Positions 28,967 to 38,853 of a stretch of DNA of 64,000 nt are shown piece after piece; position 1 is the first letter of the stretch; each line of letters opens with the position of its first letter. Source of the stretch: an uncultured Victivallaceae bacterium (GTDB lineage Bacteria; Verrucomicrobiota; Lentisphaeria; Victivallales; Victivallaceae); NCBI GenBank assembly GCA_944389925.1, contig CALXOD010000051.1, forward strand, positions 1 through 64,000. The letters run 5' to 3'. Made by a program: the position numbers and the translations under genes. Under the pieces are notes generated by a model. The model was not told the DNA's origin and did not search any database. It saw nothing but the letters and a program-made list of their open reading frames with translations.

Positions 28967-31492
28967 TTATTCGGAATCTCCGAACGGAATAAAACAAAAG
29001 TGCCCGCTGGTTTTCCCGTTGACGGTCCGGCACTCCCAGAGCCGCCAGAATAACGAAACGCGCCGGTCCCCGCCGTTTCTCTGCAACGAAAAGAACGGAA
29101 GCAGCGTTTCACTCTTTTCCCCGTCCCGCCGATAGCGATACAAATACCGCAGAATGCGCACCTCCTCCCGGTCGTCCGAAGCGAAGCCGTCCGCCAGTAT
29201 CCACGCCGCATTCCATCGGGAAGCCGATTCCGTACGTCTGACGCCGAAGAGCCAGGTGCCGTATTCCCGCACCCCGCACTCCCGGATGCGCTCGCCGTAA
29301 AGCGAATTCAGACACGTCTGAAGCGCTTCCGCCGAGTTCATACCAGATGTCGCAATGGCAAGTCCAAGTTCGGCAGAAACTTCGGATAACTCCTTCTGTG
29401 AAGAGAGCAACATCGCCCGTTGCTTTTCCAGCCAGTTATAATCCCATTTCAGCTTTTCCAGCATGGTCTGAAGGTACCCTTTCGGTACGACAGATGCGGC
29501 CTTGCGGCAGGCGTCCTCGTGATCCAGAACCAACGTCTTTCCCGTTTCCGCTTTCAAAGCCTGTTCCACCAGCGGCCGCTGAACATGCAGGCGCATTTCC
29601 AGCTCCGCCAGTTGCCGCAAATCACCAATCCGCGTCCGCAACAGGGCACGCAGCTGATTCAAACGCGCCGCCTCACCCGGCTTGACCGCCACCAGAACCG
29701 TCTCGTCTTCCTGATGATACAATCCCAGCAGGACTCCCAGCCCGGATTGATGGACGAAAGAACGGTGATCCAGCACCGCATCCGCTTCACAGACGACAGC
29801 GGCATCGCGGTCATGCTGCTTTCGGGAAGCCATCCAGCCGACGGGAAAAAGGAAAAAGCGGTCCTTTTCCATGGCACTGTCTTTGACGTAAGTCAAAAGC
29901 GGTATGGAAAGGAATGTACTCTCCTCCTTCGACCGGCTGTATATGCTCAGCAGAGCAAGAGAAAACCATGTCCCATCCTGTTTGTACAGAAGTGGCAGGC
30001 ACCCTCCACTCCAGGTCGTCTGGATGGGTAGACGGCATGTCGGAATCGTATCCTTCAGAAAGGCGCGCAACGACTCCCCGTCTGTAACACTTTCCGGTAA
30101 AATCAGCTCCGGATTCAGCTTCCGGAGTTCGGCACTGATTTGCTTCCGGTCGATCTGATTCCCTTCCGCACGGGAAGCGGCGAACAAATTCCGCACTGTC
30201 TCCCATTCCGGCGAAGCGGCGTAATGCTTCGTACGCACGACATTCCCGAGCAGTGGCAAGGCAAAGACGCTGGTCCTCTCCACGATGGGACTGGCTTCCC
30301 ATGCCCGCAACTGCTGTTTCTGAAAGCGGCAGATGCCCAGAAAATGGAACGTCTGTTCGCGGTCCGCGACATTCCGGTAATAAGGAAAGCAGACCAGCAA
30401 ACGGAACGTCTGCTCCGTCGGAGAACTTTCCCGATGAAACAGCGGTATCAACCCGAAATAACTTTCATTCTGCAGCACGGCTTGATCCCGCAGTGCCGTC
30501 TGGAGCTGTTTAAGTTCGGCTTCGTTTTCGGGGAACTTCCCCCGGTAGCCGAGTTTTTCCAACTGATAAGTCAGATAGGGCCGATGAGCCAGGATCTTAT
30601 CCATTCTCCCGGAATTCAGCAGGGAAAGATCGCACTCTTTTTGCCAGTGAAAAACACTCCGAGTCCCGGCATACCCGAGCAGACCGAACAATTGAAACGA
30701 CTGTTCCGCCTTCCGTTTGCCTGGCGCAAACATGGGATTGACCTCCGGTGGATGGCGAAACTCCTGCCGATTCCTGAGATAGATCGGCCCCAAAATGGAG
30801 AGCATGCCGTCGTCATCCCACGCTGCAAACGGACTGACGAAACATTTCCCGTCACGGGAAATGCTGTAAAGCGGAAATAAATACTGATTCAGAGCATTCC
30901 GATAGCGGAAAATCGGCAGGAACCCGAAAGTTTGGTCGGAGCCATCCCACCAGAACGGGCCGGCGTACCCGAGGCCATTCGGAACATATCGCACAATCGG
31001 GAAAAAGCCACACGACTGCCCTTTCCACCAGAACGGACCGGCATATCCAAGTCCATCAGGAACATATCGCGCAATTGGGAAAAAGCCAAACGACTGCCCT
31101 TTCCACCAGAACGGGCCGGCATACTGGAAGGCATTCGCCTGCGTAGAAAAACGGGCCAGCGGAAAGAGCCCGCCGGAAGTGTGTTCATCCCCGCGATACC
31201 ACCAGAAGGGTATGACGGAATTAATGCCGGAACCGAACCAGGCAACCGGAAAGAGGCCCAGACGGTCTCCCCGCCGCCAGAACAGCGCATAATAAGCCGG
31301 CCATTCCGGGGTCCGCGAGTGATGGAAAAGCGGCGCCATGCCGAAGCCGGCGCGATTCCAGTAGGCATTCGCCAGCCAGCCGTCGCCGTTGACCGGATTC
31401 CAGGCGCAGAGCGGAAACAGCACGGCATATTCATTCCCCTCCTGGTTGAAGAAGGGACGCACCGCGAATCCGTAAGGATCGCTGTCGATCAT
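28967..31492 (-). CDS. Large aromatic repeat protein, main part of a frameshifted lipoprotein
   Basis: 841 aa, family not recognised. The first 280 residues consist of repeats built on G-PFWW-x-G-x-x-(F/C)-G-F-(F/L)-P-I-x-R-Y with a period near 26 aa; two units are nearly identical (78-bp repeat). Similar but looser FFPI/LFPL motifs recur through the middle, followed by a helical stretch (about residues 640-730, rich in Leu, Glu, Gln) and a C-terminal return to LFPF/FFSLQRNGG strands. The pattern suggests a beta-rich surface protein. The frame is open upstream of the ATG at 31492 and continues as RNNLYTSVFWPMID, which is clearly the same repeat type; the natural N-terminus is the lipoprotein start at 31740 in another frame. 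Restoring one base gives about 924 aa. Confidence 0.75.
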   Translation of the reverse strand: MIDSDPYGFAVRPFFNQEGNEYAVLFPLCAWNPVNGDGWLANAYWNRAGFGMAPLFHHSRTPEWPAYYALFWRRGDRLGLFPVAWFGSGINSVIPFWWYRGDEHTSGGLFPLARFSTQANAFQYAGPFWWKGQSFGFFPIARYVPDGLGYAGPFWWKGQSCGFFPIVRYVPNGLGYAGPFWWDGSDQTFGFLPIFRYRNALNQYLFPLYSISRDGKCFVSPFAAWDDDGMLSILGPIYLRNRQEFRHPPEVNPMFAPGKRKAEQSFQLFGLLGYAGTRSVFHWQKECDLSLLNSGRMDKILAHRPYLTYQLEKLGYRGKFPENEAELKQLQTALRDQAVLQNESYFGLIPLFHRESSPTEQTFRLLVCFPYYRNVADREQTFHFLGICRFQKQQLRAWEASPIVERTSVFALPLLGNVVRTKHYAASPEWETVRNLFAASRAEGNQIDRKQISAELRKLNPELILPESVTDGESLRAFLKDTIPTCRLPIQTTWSGGCLPLLYKQDGTWFSLALLSIYSRSKEESTFLSIPLLTYVKDSAMEKDRFFLFPVGWMASRKQHDRDAAVVCEADAVLDHRSFVHQSGLGVLLGLYHQEDETVLVAVKPGEAARLNQLRALLRTRIGDLRQLAELEMRLHVQRPLVEQALKAETGKTLVLDHEDACRKAASVVPKGYLQTMLEKLKWDYNWLEKQRAMLLSSQKELSEVSAELGLAIATSGMNSAEALQTCLNSLYGERIRECGVREYGTWLFGVRRTESASRWNAAWILADGFASDDREEVRILRYLYRYRRDGEKSETLLPFFSLQRNGGDRRVSLFWRLWECRTVNGKTSGHFCFIPFGDSE
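30983..31138 (-). repeat. 78-bp tandem repeat inside the aromatic repeat gene
   Basis: Two units start at 30983 and 31061, 78 bases (26 codons) apart. They share about 62 bases with four differences and then diverge; weaker copies flank them. They encode PFWWKGQSxGFFPIxRY units. Such near-identity suggests recent duplication. Confidence 0.8.
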
Positions 31493-33029: not shown

Positions 33030-33494
33030 ATGAGAAGGTCAAAATGGTTCAGAATCGGTATATCGGCGAGCCTGGCGCTGTTGCTGGTATGGGGAATCTG
33101 TGTGCTCTACCGCAGCTGGGTGGCGCGGAGAAACGTGCGAATCCTGGATAAGGTGTGCAGGAAACCGCAAAAATCATGGTTATCCGGTGAACGCAAGGGA
33201 GAGATGAGGCTGTTCCTCGCCCAGGATCTTCCTGGCCGGATAGCCACCGTCAGTCCACTGCTTTATCAGGAAGACGGGACCGGCAGAACTTCTTCTGTGG
33301 TGAACGGGATTTCATTGTCATTCCGAATGGTGAAAGATACTCCGGCGGAAAAAATTCTGGATATCGAAGTCAATGACAACGGCGTCGTGCATCGGGTCAA
33401 GGATTTTCATTATCGCATGGAACCCATGGTAACCGCATTGCGGGGGGCGCGCTGGGCGGCGATCATCAGCAGTAACTTCGGAGATCCGGAATGA
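33030..33494 (+). CDS. Small membrane-anchored protein, unrecognised
   Basis: 154 aa. One N-terminal membrane segment (ISASLALLLVWGICVLY, about residues 11-27) is preceded by basic residues, so the remaining 125 residues should lie in the periplasm. The soluble part (MRLFLAQDLPGRIATVSPLL, LSFRMVKDTPAEKILDIEVN) has no recognised motif. Its stop overlaps the start of the next gene (ATGA at 33491-33494), coupling it to the LolA-like protein; it is the first gene of a five-gene plus-strand cluster. Confidence 0.7.
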   Translation: MRRSKWFRIGISASLALLLVWGICVLYRSWVARRNVRILDKVCRKPQKSWLSGERKGEMRLFLAQDLPGRIATVSPLLYQEDGTGRTSSVVNGISLSFRMVKDTPAEKILDIEVNDNGVVHRVKDFHYRMEPMVTALRGARWAAIISSNFGDPE

Positions 33495-34465
33495 AAAGAC
33501 ATCGCATGATTACCGGTTGGGGCATCGGATTGATTCTGGCAATGGCGATCAGCACCGTGGCGGAGACGGCAGCCCGGCCGGCGGAAATGCCATGGAGCCG
33601 GGCTTTATTGCAGGACGCCTTCGAAAAAACCGAAGCCCTCAATTATTGTACGGAATTTGAAGGAGTAGCGCGGGATAAGGAAGGTGTTCATCGGAAGATA
33701 CGCTATTATCGCCATACCGGAGAAGACGGTGTTGTCTATCGCCGGGCGGAAATTCTTCGAAACGGGACTGTGGAAGAGGTATATATCGCCAATGCCTCCG
33801 GACAATATGGCATCATCGATGAATATCGGAGCCGGCTTGGTGAGACGTTCCTTCTTTTCGATCTGGACTTCCTACATCTTCCGATTGACTCGATGGAGCT
33901 GTCGAACAGTGTTTACGAGGTAGCGGATGGAATTTATAACGGCATTCCCTGTTATGAGTTGCGGATGAAGGTCGGCCCATCCGATCTGCTGCTTGCCGAC
34001 ATTTCCGGAAAACCGTTCCTGGAAGTTCAGGATGTTCATGGTAAGTTCCGGCGGGTTCGGCCTTTTGTCCGGGTGTTCTGGATTGGCAAAGAGGATCATA
34101 TCATTTACGCCCGGAAACATTATAACGCATGGGGAAAGTTGCTGATCGCCCAGGAGTTGGGAACCGTTCTTCCGGAAGACAGCGGCAATATGGATCTGTA
34201 CGAAACGCCTTCCGGTATCCAGGAGTCCTTTTATTTTCGTCCGGATTTTCGCATGTGGGCGGCGGCACGGCGTGAATTGGCTGCACGGCCGATCCAGGAC
34301 CCGCTGGAGTCGCTGCTGGAAAAAACCGGGCGATGGGGACGACGCTGGATCTCCTGGGACACCCTGCTCCGCTATGGGCCCGCCTTTTTCGGTTCCGTCG
34401 CGTTGGTGCTGTTGCTGGGGCTGGGCGGCCGGCTGCTCTGGTTGCGGTTGAAACCGGATAAATAA
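33491..34465 (+). CDS. Exported LolA/RseB-like protein with C-terminal membrane anchor
   Basis: 324 aa. A signal peptide (GWGIGLILAMAISTVAETA) is followed by a domain whose beginning (AFEKTEALNYCTEFEGVA, then repeated strand-turn-strand units such as GEDGVVYRRAEILRNG) resembles the half-barrel of outer-membrane lipoprotein-sorting proteins. The similarity is by pattern only. Near the C-terminus, RYGPAFFGSVALVLLLGLGG forms a membrane segment with a basic tail inside. Such an anchored half-barrel could bind lipid or lipoprotein at the inner membrane. Its start overlaps the upstream gene by four bases. Confidence 0.6.
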   Translation: MKRHRMITGWGIGLILAMAISTVAETAARPAEMPWSRALLQDAFEKTEALNYCTEFEGVARDKEGVHRKIRYYRHTGEDGVVYRRAEILRNGTVEEVYIANASGQYGIIDEYRSRLGETFLLFDLDFLHLPIDSMELSNSVYEVADGIYNGIPCYELRMKVGPSDLLLADISGKPFLEVQDVHGKFRRVRPFVRVFWIGKEDHIIYARKHYNAWGKLLIAQELGTVLPEDSGNMDLYETPSGIQESFYFRPDFRMWAAARRELAARPIQDPLESLLEKTGRWGRRWISWDTLLRYGPAFFGSVALVLLLGLGGRLLWLRLKPDK

Positions 34466-34596
34466 AACAAGAGAAGCAGGCCATCCGAATGTCGCTTTCC
34501 TCTTTCGACAGGAATTCAGGATCTGCCTTCCAGAAAAAATGCTGGAATACAACAGATCCCAACATGAATGATGCTCTTTTACGATACTGACAGCGG

Positions 34597-36045
34597 ATGT
34601 TTTATTATCTCGAACATGCAAGACTTCAGTTGTGGTTTTTCAGCCCCAACCTCTGTGCTGCGTTTCTGGTAATCACCCTGCTGTTGACGGTGGGGGGATT
34701 CCGACGGATGCGCATAGCCCATACGCCGGGAATCCGAATGGCGGCATGGAGCGTTGCCGCCATGGCCGGATTGCAAATCATCATGCTGGCCATGACCTAT
34801 TCCCGCGGCGGTTATCTGGCTGCCCTGACTGCCACCACACTGGCCGCGCTGGCGGAAAAAAACTGGCGCGGCTGGGTGGTACCGTTGTTGATTCTGGCAG
34901 TCATTCTACTGACTGTCGACGGCGGAAGCCGCATCCGTTCAGCAACACAGTGGGAAGAAGGCTCCATCCGAAACCGTCTGCTGCTGTGGCACGGCGGCAC
35001 GGCCATCGCAGCCCGCCACTGGGCGACCGGTATCGGAGCACCGCCGGCGGCAGGGAATCTTTATACGGCTTATTATCAGCCGCTATGGCTTGAGGAACGT
35101 TATCATTCGATGGTCAGCGATTATATGACACTGGCGACGGCGTATGGCCTGATCTGGTTGACCGCCGGACTGCTGGCTGTGTTTTCCGGGATTGGGATCG
35201 GCTGGTGCTGCTGGCGCGGCAATCGGGATCCCCTGTTGCTTTATGCCCTGGCGGCGATTGTCGGGTATCTGGTGTGCGGACTTTTTTCCACCGGCTATGC
35301 TTCCGGCTGGATCATGGCGGCATGGGCTGCGGCATGGGGCGTGGTGGCATTATTTGTCTTGCGCGACATGCGGCGATATGGATTCCGACCGCGTCCGGCA
35401 ATTGCCGGATGGGCATTCGGAGCGGCGGCGGGAATTGCGCTGCTCCTGGGAGGATATGGCGGCATGGTCTATCATAATCGACCATTCCACTGGCAGCAGC
35501 GGGAAATCGGGAACAGCCTTCCCCTCCTGGAACTGTCTCCCCGGCAGGAAACACGGGGCACGGTGATTCTGGCGGTATCCCATCTGGAAACGGCCATCCG
35601 GCCCGTGTTGCGCCCCCTGGTGGAGAAAGGCTGGCATGTGATCGGCCTGGAAACTGCCCCCGGTACAAATGCCGTTGAACCTTTCCGGGAAGCGGCCCAA
35701 CAGATACGCGCCACCCTTCCTGACGACAAGCCGGTCTGGCTGGGAGCTCCCGATGCGGAGTTGTCCCTGGTGGTGCTGGCAGCTGGAGCCACCGGTTCCC
35801 TCCAGCCTGACTGGGACGGAATTGCGACATTCAATCTGCCGTCGGATTGGCCGTTTGCAGAACTTTCTCCCGTCAAGCGGCTCGACGTCTGGAACAAACC
35901 GCTGATTCTGGCATCCGACCAATGGCACATCGATGCAACACGAAAATTGGCGGAAGGGGGAACGAAGCGAATTCTTCCGGAGCCGGCGGACAACAGGACA
36001 CCCCCCGGTGTCATTTTTGCGGAGGTATTGAACCGATGTTTTTGA
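34597..36045 (+). CDS. O-antigen-ligase-like membrane domain fused to a hydrolase-like domain
   Basis: 482 aa. Residues 1-280 hold about seven membrane segments with features of the O-antigen ligase/polymerase (Wzy_C) family: FFSPNLCAAFLV near the start, MTYSRGGYLAAL, the long loop IRNRLLLWHGGTAIAARHW and TGIGAPPAAGNLYTAYY. About five N-terminal membrane segments of typical ligases are absent, and a stop codon lies three codons before this ATG, so the gene may be truncated. Residues 310-482 (GTVILAVSHLETAIRPVLRPL, WHVIGLETAPG, PVWLGAPDAELSLVVLA) look like an alpha/beta hydrolase core, but the nucleophile elbow reads GAPDA with no Ser. The stop overlaps the next start by ten bases. No good ribosome site precedes the ATG. 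Confidence 0.6.
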   Translation: MFYYLEHARLQLWFFSPNLCAAFLVITLLLTVGGFRRMRIAHTPGIRMAAWSVAAMAGLQIIMLAMTYSRGGYLAALTATTLAALAEKNWRGWVVPLLILAVILLTVDGGSRIRSATQWEEGSIRNRLLLWHGGTAIAARHWATGIGAPPAAGNLYTAYYQPLWLEERYHSMVSDYMTLATAYGLIWLTAGLLAVFSGIGIGWCCWRGNRDPLLLYALAAIVGYLVCGLFSTGYASGWIMAAWAAAWGVVALFVLRDMRRYGFRPRPAIAGWAFGAAAGIALLLGGYGGMVYHNRPFHWQQREIGNSLPLLELSPRQETRGTVILAVSHLETAIRPVLRPLVEKGWHVIGLETAPGTNAVEPFREAAQQIRATLPDDKPVWLGAPDAELSLVVLAAGATGSLQPDWDGIATFNLPSDWPFAELSPVKRLDVWNKPLILASDQWHIDATRKLAEGGTKRILPEPADNRTPPGVIFAEVLNRCF

Positions 36046-37601
36046 AGAAAAAATGGGTCTGGCCGGCTCTGGGGTTGGGTATCGTGCTTCTTGCTGGAGT
36101 GTGGTGGTACTGGGAAGAAACCCGGATTGAGGGATGGACGCTGGAAATGCCGGTGCCATCCCCCAGGCAGGAACCGCCGAAATACAAAATCATGCGTGGA
36201 CGTTTTTCGCTCCGGGTGAATCTGCCGTGGAATTTTCGTACGACCGTCACCTATCTGATGCCGGTAGACGAACAGGGAAAACCGTTGCCAAGTGCCTCGG
36301 ACATGGTTTTTTACGCGCCGTTTAGTGGAGAAGCCTGGCGGAAACCCCCGAGCCGTCCGATTCATTTCTATTTTGCGGAAGAACTGGGAATGACGATTTT
36401 TTCCTTTTCCATCGAGCTGGGCAAAACTTACCCCCAGGAACCACTCGATTACAGCAATCCCGACAGCGGCTGGATGGAAGTAGTCATGCAATGCCGGGAA
36501 CTGATTGTGCGCCGACACGGTCTGGAATTGCGCCCGCTGCTGGCCTGGGGACAGTCTGCGGGGGAAGCCATGGCGGGACACCTGGCATTGCGTTATCCCG
36601 ATGCAGTTGATGCAATAACCGGCTGCGGCGGAGGCATCAGAGTGAAACCGACTCAAATCAATCACACCGCCTGGCTGGTACTGAATACCTGGGGATGCCC
36701 CGCAGTTCCGGTCAACCGGATCTTTGAAAAACGAATGCGCGATCTGGGCATGCCTTGCCTGCGGGCGGAAACTCCCCCTTTACGGGAGCGAAAACAGGGC
36801 GTCAACCACCACACTCCCAATCAGGAAGCGTATGAATTGATTGCCTGCTTTCTCAGCGATGCCGCCCGACTGCGCCGTGAAAACGGCGGGCGGATGCCGC
36901 CTCCCGCCCAATGGCCGGTCACAGAGGTCATCCAGGGGAAAACCTATCAACTTCCCTCAGCAGAATTCGCCCGGTTATGGCGCCAACTACCCCATGAGAT
37001 CACCGCTTGGCAGGCCGCCCCGGAAGCCGCCGGCAATACCGGAATCGTGCGTTCGGTTTATCCTCCCCGGGATGACGTGAAACGACTGCTGGTGGTAGTC
37101 CCCCCCCTTTCGGGGGAAGCGGGATTGCGCGATTCGTTGTACGAATGTGTGATTCCCGGCGTCTTGGCAGTCGGCTTGACCGATCGCTTCGGAGAAGCCG
37201 GGGTGGAAGACTGGAAACGGGCTCTGCGTGACATTTTAAATGAAGAAAAGTGGAAGCAATACCCGTTGGAATTGGCACTCGGCGGCTTCCAAGGTCAGCT
37301 TGCGTTGCGGGCGGCATTGGAATTAAAAAGTGAACGCATTCGCCGAATTGGCTGTTTTAAACTGGAGTATGATCACCCCACACCCGAAATATCTCCGGCG
37401 AAGGCGATCGACGGGGTGCCGGCCCAAATACTCTGGTACGAGGATCCGGACCAGGTCATCCGCCAGAAGCTGCCACCCTCCATGGAGCGTCATATACTGA
37501 ATACCTCCCTTACCGAGACGGCATGGTTGAATATGCTGGCAGCATTTGTCGAACGCGAAAAACTACCGGACCCCTCTTCTGAGGTGGGAAAAAACGATTG
37601 A
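36036..37601 (+). CDS. Membrane-anchored alpha/beta hydrolase with a second, degenerate hydrolase domain
   Basis: 521 aa. An N-terminal anchor (VWPALGLGIVLLAGVWWYW) places the protein outside the inner membrane. The first domain has the nucleophile elbow GQSAG (LAWGQSAGEAMAGHLALRYP, about residue 171), typical of esterases and peptidases of this fold; VNHHTPNQEA may hold the His. From about residue 345 a second, similar core follows (KRLLVVVPPLSGEAGLRD, then LALGGFQGQLALRAALE), in which the elbow Ser is replaced by Gln. It thus looks like an internal duplication with one active copy. GGAGG precedes the ATG, which overlaps the ligase-like gene. Substrate unknown; an acyl or ester group on a surface glycan is a guess. 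Confidence 0.65.
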   Translation: MFLKKKWVWPALGLGIVLLAGVWWYWEETRIEGWTLEMPVPSPRQEPPKYKIMRGRFSLRVNLPWNFRTTVTYLMPVDEQGKPLPSASDMVFYAPFSGEAWRKPPSRPIHFYFAEELGMTIFSFSIELGKTYPQEPLDYSNPDSGWMEVVMQCRELIVRRHGLELRPLLAWGQSAGEAMAGHLALRYPDAVDAITGCGGGIRVKPTQINHTAWLVLNTWGCPAVPVNRIFEKRMRDLGMPCLRAETPPLRERKQGVNHHTPNQEAYELIACFLSDAARLRRENGGRMPPPAQWPVTEVIQGKTYQLPSAEFARLWRQLPHEITAWQAAPEAAGNTGIVRSVYPPRDDVKRLLVVVPPLSGEAGLRDSLYECVIPGVLAVGLTDRFGEAGVEDWKRALRDILNEEKWKQYPLELALGGFQGQLALRAALELKSERIRRIGCFKLEYDHPTPEISPAKAIDGVPAQILWYEDPDQVIRQKLPPSMERHILNTSLTETAWLNMLAAFVEREKLPDPSSEVGKND

Positions 37602-37615
37602 AAGGATTGCAGGTG

Positions 37616-38407
37616 ATGAAAAAAAATTTTACGCTGGTGGAACTGCTGACGGTGATTGCGATCATTTCTATTCTGGCCGCCCTCCTGTTGTCCGCCATGA
37701 ACAAAAGTCGCAACAAAGCCATCCAGATTACCTGCGTCAACAATAATCGGCAGTTGCAGATGGCTTTCATGCAGTACACCTCCAACAGCGATGGATTTTT
37801 CCCGCCTTATTACCCCAACTGGTTCGGTGGCCGTTACAGCTGGGTCAAAAATCTGGTGTACCACCGGTATGTCACCAATGCCGAACTGCTGGTCTGTTCA
37901 GAAGTAGCCCGGATGCCTTACGGAACCAGCGGCGGCAACCATCTGGATGCGCTGCGCATTTACGTAGACCGGTTGTTGAACGATGAACGGGGCTTGGATT
38001 ATCAGAATTTTGCCGGGAACCGGATCAGTTACGGCTACAACTGGGCCGCTTTCGGCAGAAACAAGGAACCGGCGCGGAACAACCGGATCCGGCATCCCTC
38101 GCAGACGATTCTGCTGGCGGAAAACAAACGGCATGATCCGGACGTGAAAGACAAGGAGGATACCTCTTCCTTCATCGTCTCTCCCAAAAGCAGAGAAGAT
38201 TATGCCTCCTACAAAACGTTTGCCGGGTATATATGGCCCCGGCATGACCAGAAGAGGCTGGCGGTCGGCTGGGCGGACGGCCATGCCACGCTGGAACAGG
38301 TGCCGACGCTGGATCCGGCGAAAATTTATGATGCGGCCCCTTTTGCCTATGGAGGCACCAAATCGCCGGAAGAGAAGGGCTATGCGGAAAACAACTGGGA
38401 TCTGTAA
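37616..38407 (+). CDS. Prepilin-type pseudopilin with H-X-DG-type motif
   Basis: 263 aa. It begins MKKNFTLVELLTVIAIISIL, a class III prepilin signal with Glu5 after the cleavage site, and carries VNNNRQLQMAFMQY plus the C-terminal RHDQKRLAVGWADGH (H-X10-DG here, close to the family H-X9-DG). This matches the pseudopilin family at 18236. The start at 37616 is chosen because it places the leader correctly and AAAGGA lies about 11 bases upstream; the frame could also start at TTG 37598. It overlaps the upstream hydrolase region closely (15 bases after its stop) and is the last gene of the cluster. Confidence 0.88.
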   Translation: MKKNFTLVELLTVIAIISILAALLLSAMNKSRNKAIQITCVNNNRQLQMAFMQYTSNSDGFFPPYYPNWFGGRYSWVKNLVYHRYVTNAELLVCSEVARMPYGTSGGNHLDALRIYVDRLLNDERGLDYQNFAGNRISYGYNWAAFGRNKEPARNNRIRHPSQTILLAENKRHDPDVKDKEDTSSFIVSPKSREDYASYKTFAGYIWPRHDQKRLAVGWADGHATLEQVPTLDPAKIYDAAPFAYGGTKSPEEKGYAENNWDL

Positions 38408-38763
38408 AAAATTTTTCCTGTGATTCCAGAAGGGTAAAAAACGATTGTTCCGGGATAAATTCCGGTTGCATATTCAGGAATGAAGCTTTTCTGAAAATAC
38501 TGTTTGCTGCACTATAAGAACGCCCGGAAGGCCATGACAGCAAAAATCCATGCCCTTCGCGGCCATATTCCCCAACCTCAGGATAAGCTCAAAAAGGCTT
38601 ATCATCATCGCTATGGTTGCCCATATTCAGCCACAACGATAAAAGCGGGCCTTGTTGTGTTTTGAGCTCAAATTATTGGGTTATTCATCAGCAATCGGGG
38701 AAAAACCGGGGATGGTTTTTATTTGAAAGCGAGCTCACATCTTGTTGTAAAGCGTTGATAATC
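38408..38763. other. Intergenic region between the pseudopilin and tRNA-Ser
   Basis: 356 bases without a supported gene. It holds a perfect 7-bp hairpin GATAAGC (38582-38588) / GCTTATC (38597-38603) and AAAAACC (38701-38707) / GGTTTTT (38714-38720), which on the minus strand could end tRNA transcription. The sequence is AT-richer than its flanks. No integrase fragment or direct repeat of the tRNA end was recognised. Confidence 0.5.
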
Positions 38764-38853
38764 TGGCGGAGAGAGAGGGATTCGAACCCTCGGCACGGTT
38801 GCCCGCGCAGCGGTTTTCAAGACCGCCGCCTTAAACCACTCGACCATCTCTCC
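38764..38853 (-). tRNA. tRNA-Ser (anticodon UGA), CCA encoded
   Basis: 90 nt. Acceptor stem GGAGAGA (38853-38847) pairs with TCTCTCC before discriminator G and encoded CCA (38766-38764). The anticodon loop CTTGAAA has TGA at 38819-38817. A long variable arm (GCGCGGGCAACCGTGC region) and the T-loop GGTTCGAATCC confirm a serine tRNA. TTGAAA and a TTTTATA-like -10 occur upstream on the minus strand. Confidence 0.97.

Follow-up and report, generated by a model that had tools for sequence, protein, structure and literature searches.

The window (the whole stretch of DNA analysed, 64,000 nucleotides) is contig C51 of a 2.8-Mb genome that is 97% complete. Five genes of its + strand, called here g1 to g5, lie at 33030-38407, and the array ends next to a tRNA-Ser (TGA) gene (38764..38853, - strand), the boundary of a variable site. 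g1 (33030..33494; 154 aa) encodes a small extracytoplasmic protein with an N-terminal membrane anchor; g2 (33491..34465; 324 aa), an extracytoplasmic protein of LolA/RseB fold with a signal peptide and a C-terminal transmembrane helix; g3 (34597..36045; 482 aa), a half-size WaaL/Wzy_C protein with a hydrolase-fold domain; g4 (36036..37601; 521 aa), an extracytoplasmic alpha/beta-hydrolase with an N-terminal anchor; g5 (37598..38407 if counted from a TTG; the ATG at 37616 is the most likely start), a pseudopilin. An earlier note on this DNA had described such a one-strand array beside the tRNA-Ser gene; its presence is confirmed, and coordinates and overlaps (4 bases for g1/g2, 10 bases for g3/g4) match. 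The note's names for the first and last genes, membrane-anchored protein and pseudopilin, agree with the anchor found in g1 and the prepilin N-terminal motif of g5. The g4-g5 gap is short and the g2-g3 gap measures 131 bp; because no + strand terminator-like site was found in the latter, a single transcript across the cluster is plausible. The combination had been said to match no recognised pathway, and indeed Pfam, NCBIfam and PADLOC give no exosortase, Wzx, Wzz, glycosyltransferase or defence system in the five genes; an exosortase/exopolysaccharide locus (Pfam, NCBIfam) and an anti-phage defence system (no PADLOC matches) were rejected on these grounds. The named relatives of the cluster are Lentisphaeria/Victivallaceae MAGs.

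The membrane domain of g3 (residues ~1-293; 8 predicted membrane helices) is followed by a hydrolase-fold domain (residues ~295-482). g3 passes the threshold of Pfam Wzy_C (PF04932; 43.7 bits, cut-off 31.7), which also matches 8 of 9 relatives. In the PDB, its profile finds the O-antigen ligase WaaL (7TPG; E 6e-4), with coverage limited to WaaL residues 152-398; SRP54 and Rab, also matched by this profile, were set aside as weak chance matches to the alpha/beta domain. The AF2 model (pLDDT 81.5, pTM 0.78) has eight membrane helices, then the C-terminal domain, whose fold is that of alpha/beta-hydrolases (Z 18.1). The VIA rows for this model are taken up by the hydrolase domain; the likeness to WaaL is drawn from the profile match and from Foldseek (7TPG; E 1.8e-4).

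WaaL (CAZy GT121; PDB 7TPG/7TPJ) is a full-length protein with 12 membrane helices, and its key residues are Arg-191 and Arg-265, which bind the Und-PP phosphates, and His-313, proposed to activate the acceptor (PMC10920833). g3 shares with it the fold of the C-terminal part, the Wzy_C domain and both diphosphate-binding Arg (Arg70 and Arg127 align with Arg-191 and Arg-265). It differs from WaaL by its start, a PN motif, which leaves out the ~150 N-terminal residues, by V173 in the column of His-313 (Asp175 lies two residues on), by its extra nucleophile-less hydrolase domain and by its hydrolase partner gene. Of the 'O-antigen-ligase-like/hydrolase fusion' proposed earlier, the Wzy_C domain and the hydrolase fold are borne out; but the protein is half-size and without the WaaL His, so that 'O-antigen ligase' is an unsuitable name, and its hydrolase domain has no nucleophile. 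Two explanations of the short form were rejected. Frameshift truncation: no open frame upstream extends g3, and relatives begin at the same motif. A missing N-terminal half encoded by an adjacent gene: the upstream neighbours are g2 or hydrolases.

g4 is, as described before, a two-domain alpha/beta-hydrolase. Domain A resembles esterases and PHB depolymerases and carries a GxSxG motif; among 12 aligned members, S174 and G176 are invariant and H259 is nearly so, and in the candidate column for the acidic third residue the window protein has C where some members have D. Domain B and the C-terminal domain of g3 are homologous. No Ser stands in the nucleophile elbow of this domain in any aligned member, whether of g3 or of g4, which makes it a probable pseudo-hydrolase.

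Profile searches over 198 Lentisphaeria genomes delimit a family to which g3 belongs, named here mini-Wzy: proteins of ~380-550 aa that start at an R-x-Q-x-x-F-x-x-PN motif, found in about 45 of the 198 genomes (counted from the match table) and in about a dozen Verrucomicrobiota outside Lentisphaeria. Full-length Wzys (~580-680 aa or longer) gave far weaker matches in the same search. In a tree of 56 sequences, a single branch (100/99) separates 46 mini-Wzys from 10 full-length Wzys. The mini-Wzys themselves comprise two subfamilies: I, which includes the window protein (93/89), and II (99/91). The PN, SR and NR (HR in some) motifs are kept in all mini-Wzys examined; SR and [N/H]R align with the WaaL Args. 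The column of the WaaL His holds V, I or L in every mini-Wzy, compared with His in 8 of the 10 full-length Wzys; two residues further on, an invariant Asp is found in the subfamily I members examined and Ser or Ala in subfamily II. Given these replacements of the His, g3 itself may have lost the ability to transfer glycosyl groups. Asp or Glu stands in for this His in SEDS and several Wzy families (PMC10920833); loss of the His is therefore, by itself, no proof of loss of activity.

Enzymes of the WaaL/Wzy type are understood to have 8 to 14 helices, a catalytic loop and a GT-C fold (PMC10920833). The mini-Wzy departs from this view: it keeps the half that bears the diphosphate-binding Args, has lost the His and is associated with a serine hydrolase outside the cytoplasm, and would be either a minimal version of the class or a repurposing of it. 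A literature search for Lentisphaerae together with O-antigen ligase, in sources that mostly exclude subscription journals, returned no such pairing and no description of the system; this is a set of gene families without an earlier name, mainly of Lentisphaeria. As its motifs, its partners and dozens of members are now defined, the family is testable, and it offers a handle on the poorly known envelope of Lentisphaeria.

The earlier note had proposed a check of whether the five families co-occur. Co-conservation holds in part: it is strong for g3 with g4, good though incomplete for g2, found for g1 together with g2, and weak for the pilin. A strong g4 match (E < 1e-60) is present in 19 of the 198 genomes; a mini-Wzy accompanies it in 17 of these 19 (Fisher p 9e-11), and 16 have the g3-type gene and g4 adjacent on one contig. 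The g3-g4 neighbourhood exceeds chance. Most genomes with subfamily II have no g4 of the window type; subfamily II genes are preceded by 1-2 single-domain alpha/beta-hydrolase genes in all 12 loci of the class that have upstream sequence. Outside Lentisphaeria, a hydrolase adjoins the mini-Wzy in 7/12 loci. In subfamily I, a separate hydrolase near the mini-Wzy is missing from roughly half of the loci. g2 occurs in 23/198 genomes, 18 of which have a mini-Wzy (p 2e-9); the two genes adjoin in about 11. The order g1-g2-g3-g4 recurs in genome G036, and one contig of G130 has X (the gene of a small secreted protein, see below), g1, g2, g3 and g4 pieces in line. The exact five-gene set, pilin included, was seen at the window locus only.

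Relatives of g1 share a conserved C-terminal motif and are mostly encoded directly upstream of g2-like genes. For g2, the anchored LolA-like half-barrel proposed from the sequence is supported by the predicted fold, which is that of the lipid-binding half-barrels RseB/MucB and LolA/LprG/LppX. The best structural matches of the model are RseB/MucB (VIA, Z 11.3), followed by LppX (10.8) and LolA (about 7-8) (Foldseek E 8e-7); model confidence is modest (pLDDT 63). Pfam LolA_like matches 3 of 16 relatives. Unlike LolA, a soluble periplasmic carrier, g2 and most relatives have a C-terminal transmembrane helix that would hold them in the membrane; g2 lies beside a mini-Wzy, not beside RseA/MucA or LolCDE.

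Secreted proteins of several types are encoded near mini-Wzys or g1/g2 paralogues at related loci; none is universal across mini-Wzy loci, and no small secreted protein was found upstream of the cluster in the window. Protein X is a family whose members (~110-170 aa) carry two conserved Cys, a PPHNGTGNG-like motif and, mostly, a tail of C-x-x-H type at the C-terminus; their genes lie beside g1/g2 paralogues in three genera (nine copies in G020; also G036 and G130; L041 9524-11019 and 17526-18044, L050 6923-7306, L052-L055, L057, L205 1654-1863). Its candidacy as a universal substrate was rejected: it is present in only 3 of the 198 Lentisphaeria genomes and absent from the window genome. Cys-rich small secreted peptides unrelated to X lie beside g1/g2 in G089 and in a Pelagicoccus genome. 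Homologues of radical SAM/SPASM peptide maturases are found in two mini-Wzy loci (G006, G217; L087 1875-3257 and 9001-9920, L195 1572-4098). A rhodanese gene adjoins the mini-Wzy in three loci (L095 7774-9073; L126 4150-7607; L197 2688-3577). L095 and L197 have MauE in addition, and small Cys-rich secreted peptides are encoded in L095 and L126; the combination suggests disulphide chemistry. Secreted RHS-repeat proteins are encoded near many hydrolase/mini-Wzy operons of subfamily II, in many genera (L043, L129, L136, L138, L143, L144, L194-L197, L200); this link is given as an observation, counts of single RHS repeats being too insensitive for a base rate. Two further observations concern these loci. 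A beta-lactamase-like gene (identified by eye) lies between g4 and g3 in L087. In G020, the distance between an X-g1-g2 set and the genes for HxsB and HxsC, radical SAM maturases of the His-Xaa-Ser type, is ~3 kb (L054 13846-16139).

These neighbouring secreted proteins and maturases suggest a protein target. Considering that related loci encode peptide maturases, RHS proteins and small secreted proteins, such a target appears as likely as a glycan.

The reading tentatively preferred is that g3 and g4 form, as the core of an envelope module, a transferase of two parts that works outside the cytoplasm on a donor linked to lipid diphosphate. It starts from the gene array, the folds, the conservation of motifs, the hydrolase partnership and the monophyly described above; donor binding, division of labour, docking and acceptor are deduced as follows. 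By comparison with WaaL, g3 would use its two invariant Arg to bind the donor on the outer side of the inner membrane. g4, a membrane-anchored serine alpha/beta-hydrolase, would dock with g3, perhaps through the domain B common to both, and would contribute the Ser/His chemistry, to transfer or remove acyl or ester groups. The anchored, LolA/RseB-like g2 may hold or sense the lipid portion of the substrate, and g1 would be the partner of g2. The acceptor would probably be a secreted or surface protein encoded nearby (the pseudopilin here; small secreted or RHS proteins elsewhere), a glycan being less certain; the neighbourhoods that support this differ between loci. Pairs of a multi-pass membrane protein and an anchored hydrolase-fold transferase are known among MBOAT proteins with an extracytoplasmic esterase-fold partner: PatA/PatB, AlgI/AlgJ, DltB/DltD. 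g3 and g4 may resemble them in arrangement only, the families being unrelated (Wzy_C against MBOAT, alpha/beta- against SGNH hydrolase).

A bolder form of the two-part transferase is unlikely on present evidence: mini-Wzy and alpha/beta-hydrolase would make up a machine of a new kind that modifies proteins or peptides and is not a glycan ligase; its dedicated secreted substrates would receive an acyl group or a group borne on lipid diphosphate. If this were true, the donor-binding subunit of such a machine would be half of the WaaL fold put to a new use, and the candidate substrates would be small secreted proteins that often contain Cys (some encoded beside radical SAM peptide maturases or MauE/rhodanese), RHS proteins and pseudopilins.

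The earlier note suggested that the cluster might ligate or edit an acylated glycan at the cell surface, which is possible. A nearby reading, editing of surface polysaccharide, is conceivable but rather doubtful: g3 would ligate or polymerise an undecaprenyl-PP glycan with Asp175 in the role of the His, g4 would add or remove acyl groups and g2 would carry the lipid product. The Wzy_C domain and both Args of g3 are consistent with it, and so are the acidic residue of SEDS and several Wzy families (PMC10920833) and the Asp kept in all subfamily I members examined. However, half of the WaaL fold is absent, Asp175 lies two residues off the His column, subfamily II has neither His nor Asp at that column, and the five genes include no glycosyltransferase, Wzx or Wzz.

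A role in envelope sensing or signalling is improbable. It would make g2 an RseB-like component and g3 a sensor of lipid-diphosphate intermediates, with the hydrolase as effector or receptor domain. Besides RseB/MucB as the best structural matches of g2, two loci point this way: in G025, the g4-type hydrolase forms one protein with a BlaR1-type M56 peptidase, encoded next to a BlaI-like gene, and in G008 the gene directly after the mini-Wzy is BlaI-like (L049 6653-10017; L044 13213-13590; BlaI identified by eye, M56 by Pfam). BlaI/M56 genes occur at these two loci only, and the window cluster has no sigma/anti-sigma factor and no BlaI.

Glycosylation of a pilin, in which g3 would attach an undecaprenyl-PP-linked glycan to the neighbouring pseudopilin g5, is rather improbable. 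The pilin-specific O-oligosaccharyltransferases TfpO, TfpM and PglS are Wzy_C/WaaL-like membrane proteins whose operon can include a pilin, and their genes lie close to that of the pilin substrate (PMC12645811). Pilins are found in the operon at 5 of 11 counted loci, compared with 1.4 expected (P 0.005; 6 genes counted), the window locus having been picked with its pilin in view and gene numbers having been estimated from genome size. However, most homologous loci have no pilin, and pilins are very abundant: the prepilin motif has at least 77 matches in this genome, and g5, being one of them, is the weak link of the cluster. Its co-conservation is only suggestive, and its presence at the window locus could be partly due to chance. 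It scores below the cut-offs of the Verru_Chthon pseudopilin cassette (TIGR02596/02599; 15.9 against 256.5 and 15.6 against 70 bits). The enzyme differs too: g3 is half-size, has hydrolase and LolA-like partners and has no equivalent of PglS His324, the hypothesised catalytic base, whose change to Ala serves as an inactive control (PMC12800693). By its membership features, as far as sequence can tell, g3 falls outside the WaaL ligases (size, His) and the TfpO/PglS-type enzymes (His). It may nonetheless work like either, with Asp175 or the hydrolase replacing the His.

A decaying, functionless remnant of a full-length ligase operon, as the missing N-terminal half and His might indicate, is very unlikely: dozens of genomes keep the same truncated start, the invariant Arg/PN/SR/NR motifs and the hydrolase partner, and the proteins form one well-supported clade.

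The cluster is accessory and appears to have been exchanged recently between species; the genomes are MAGs, for which a binning error is possible. Regions of two congeners were compared with window 33030-38764 (G002 contigs C18, C59 and C35; G001 contig C363). In G002, the flanks are 86-92% identical to those of the window on both sides and the 3.6 kb of the cluster present there are 99-100% identical; the contig with the left flank and the one with the cluster share 141 bp at their overlap. At the tRNA-Ser junction, each of the three congeneric genomes has different DNA on the side facing the cluster; that of G002 includes an IS200-like transposase gene (identified by eye). The high identity of the cluster against diverged flanks and the variable tRNA-Ser side are the grounds for this view. 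Elsewhere in the window (28967-31492, - strand), an 840-aa protein contains repeats such as FGFFPIARYVPDGLGYAGPFWWKGQS; its match to the LA_1737 C-terminal family is weak (E 0.001).
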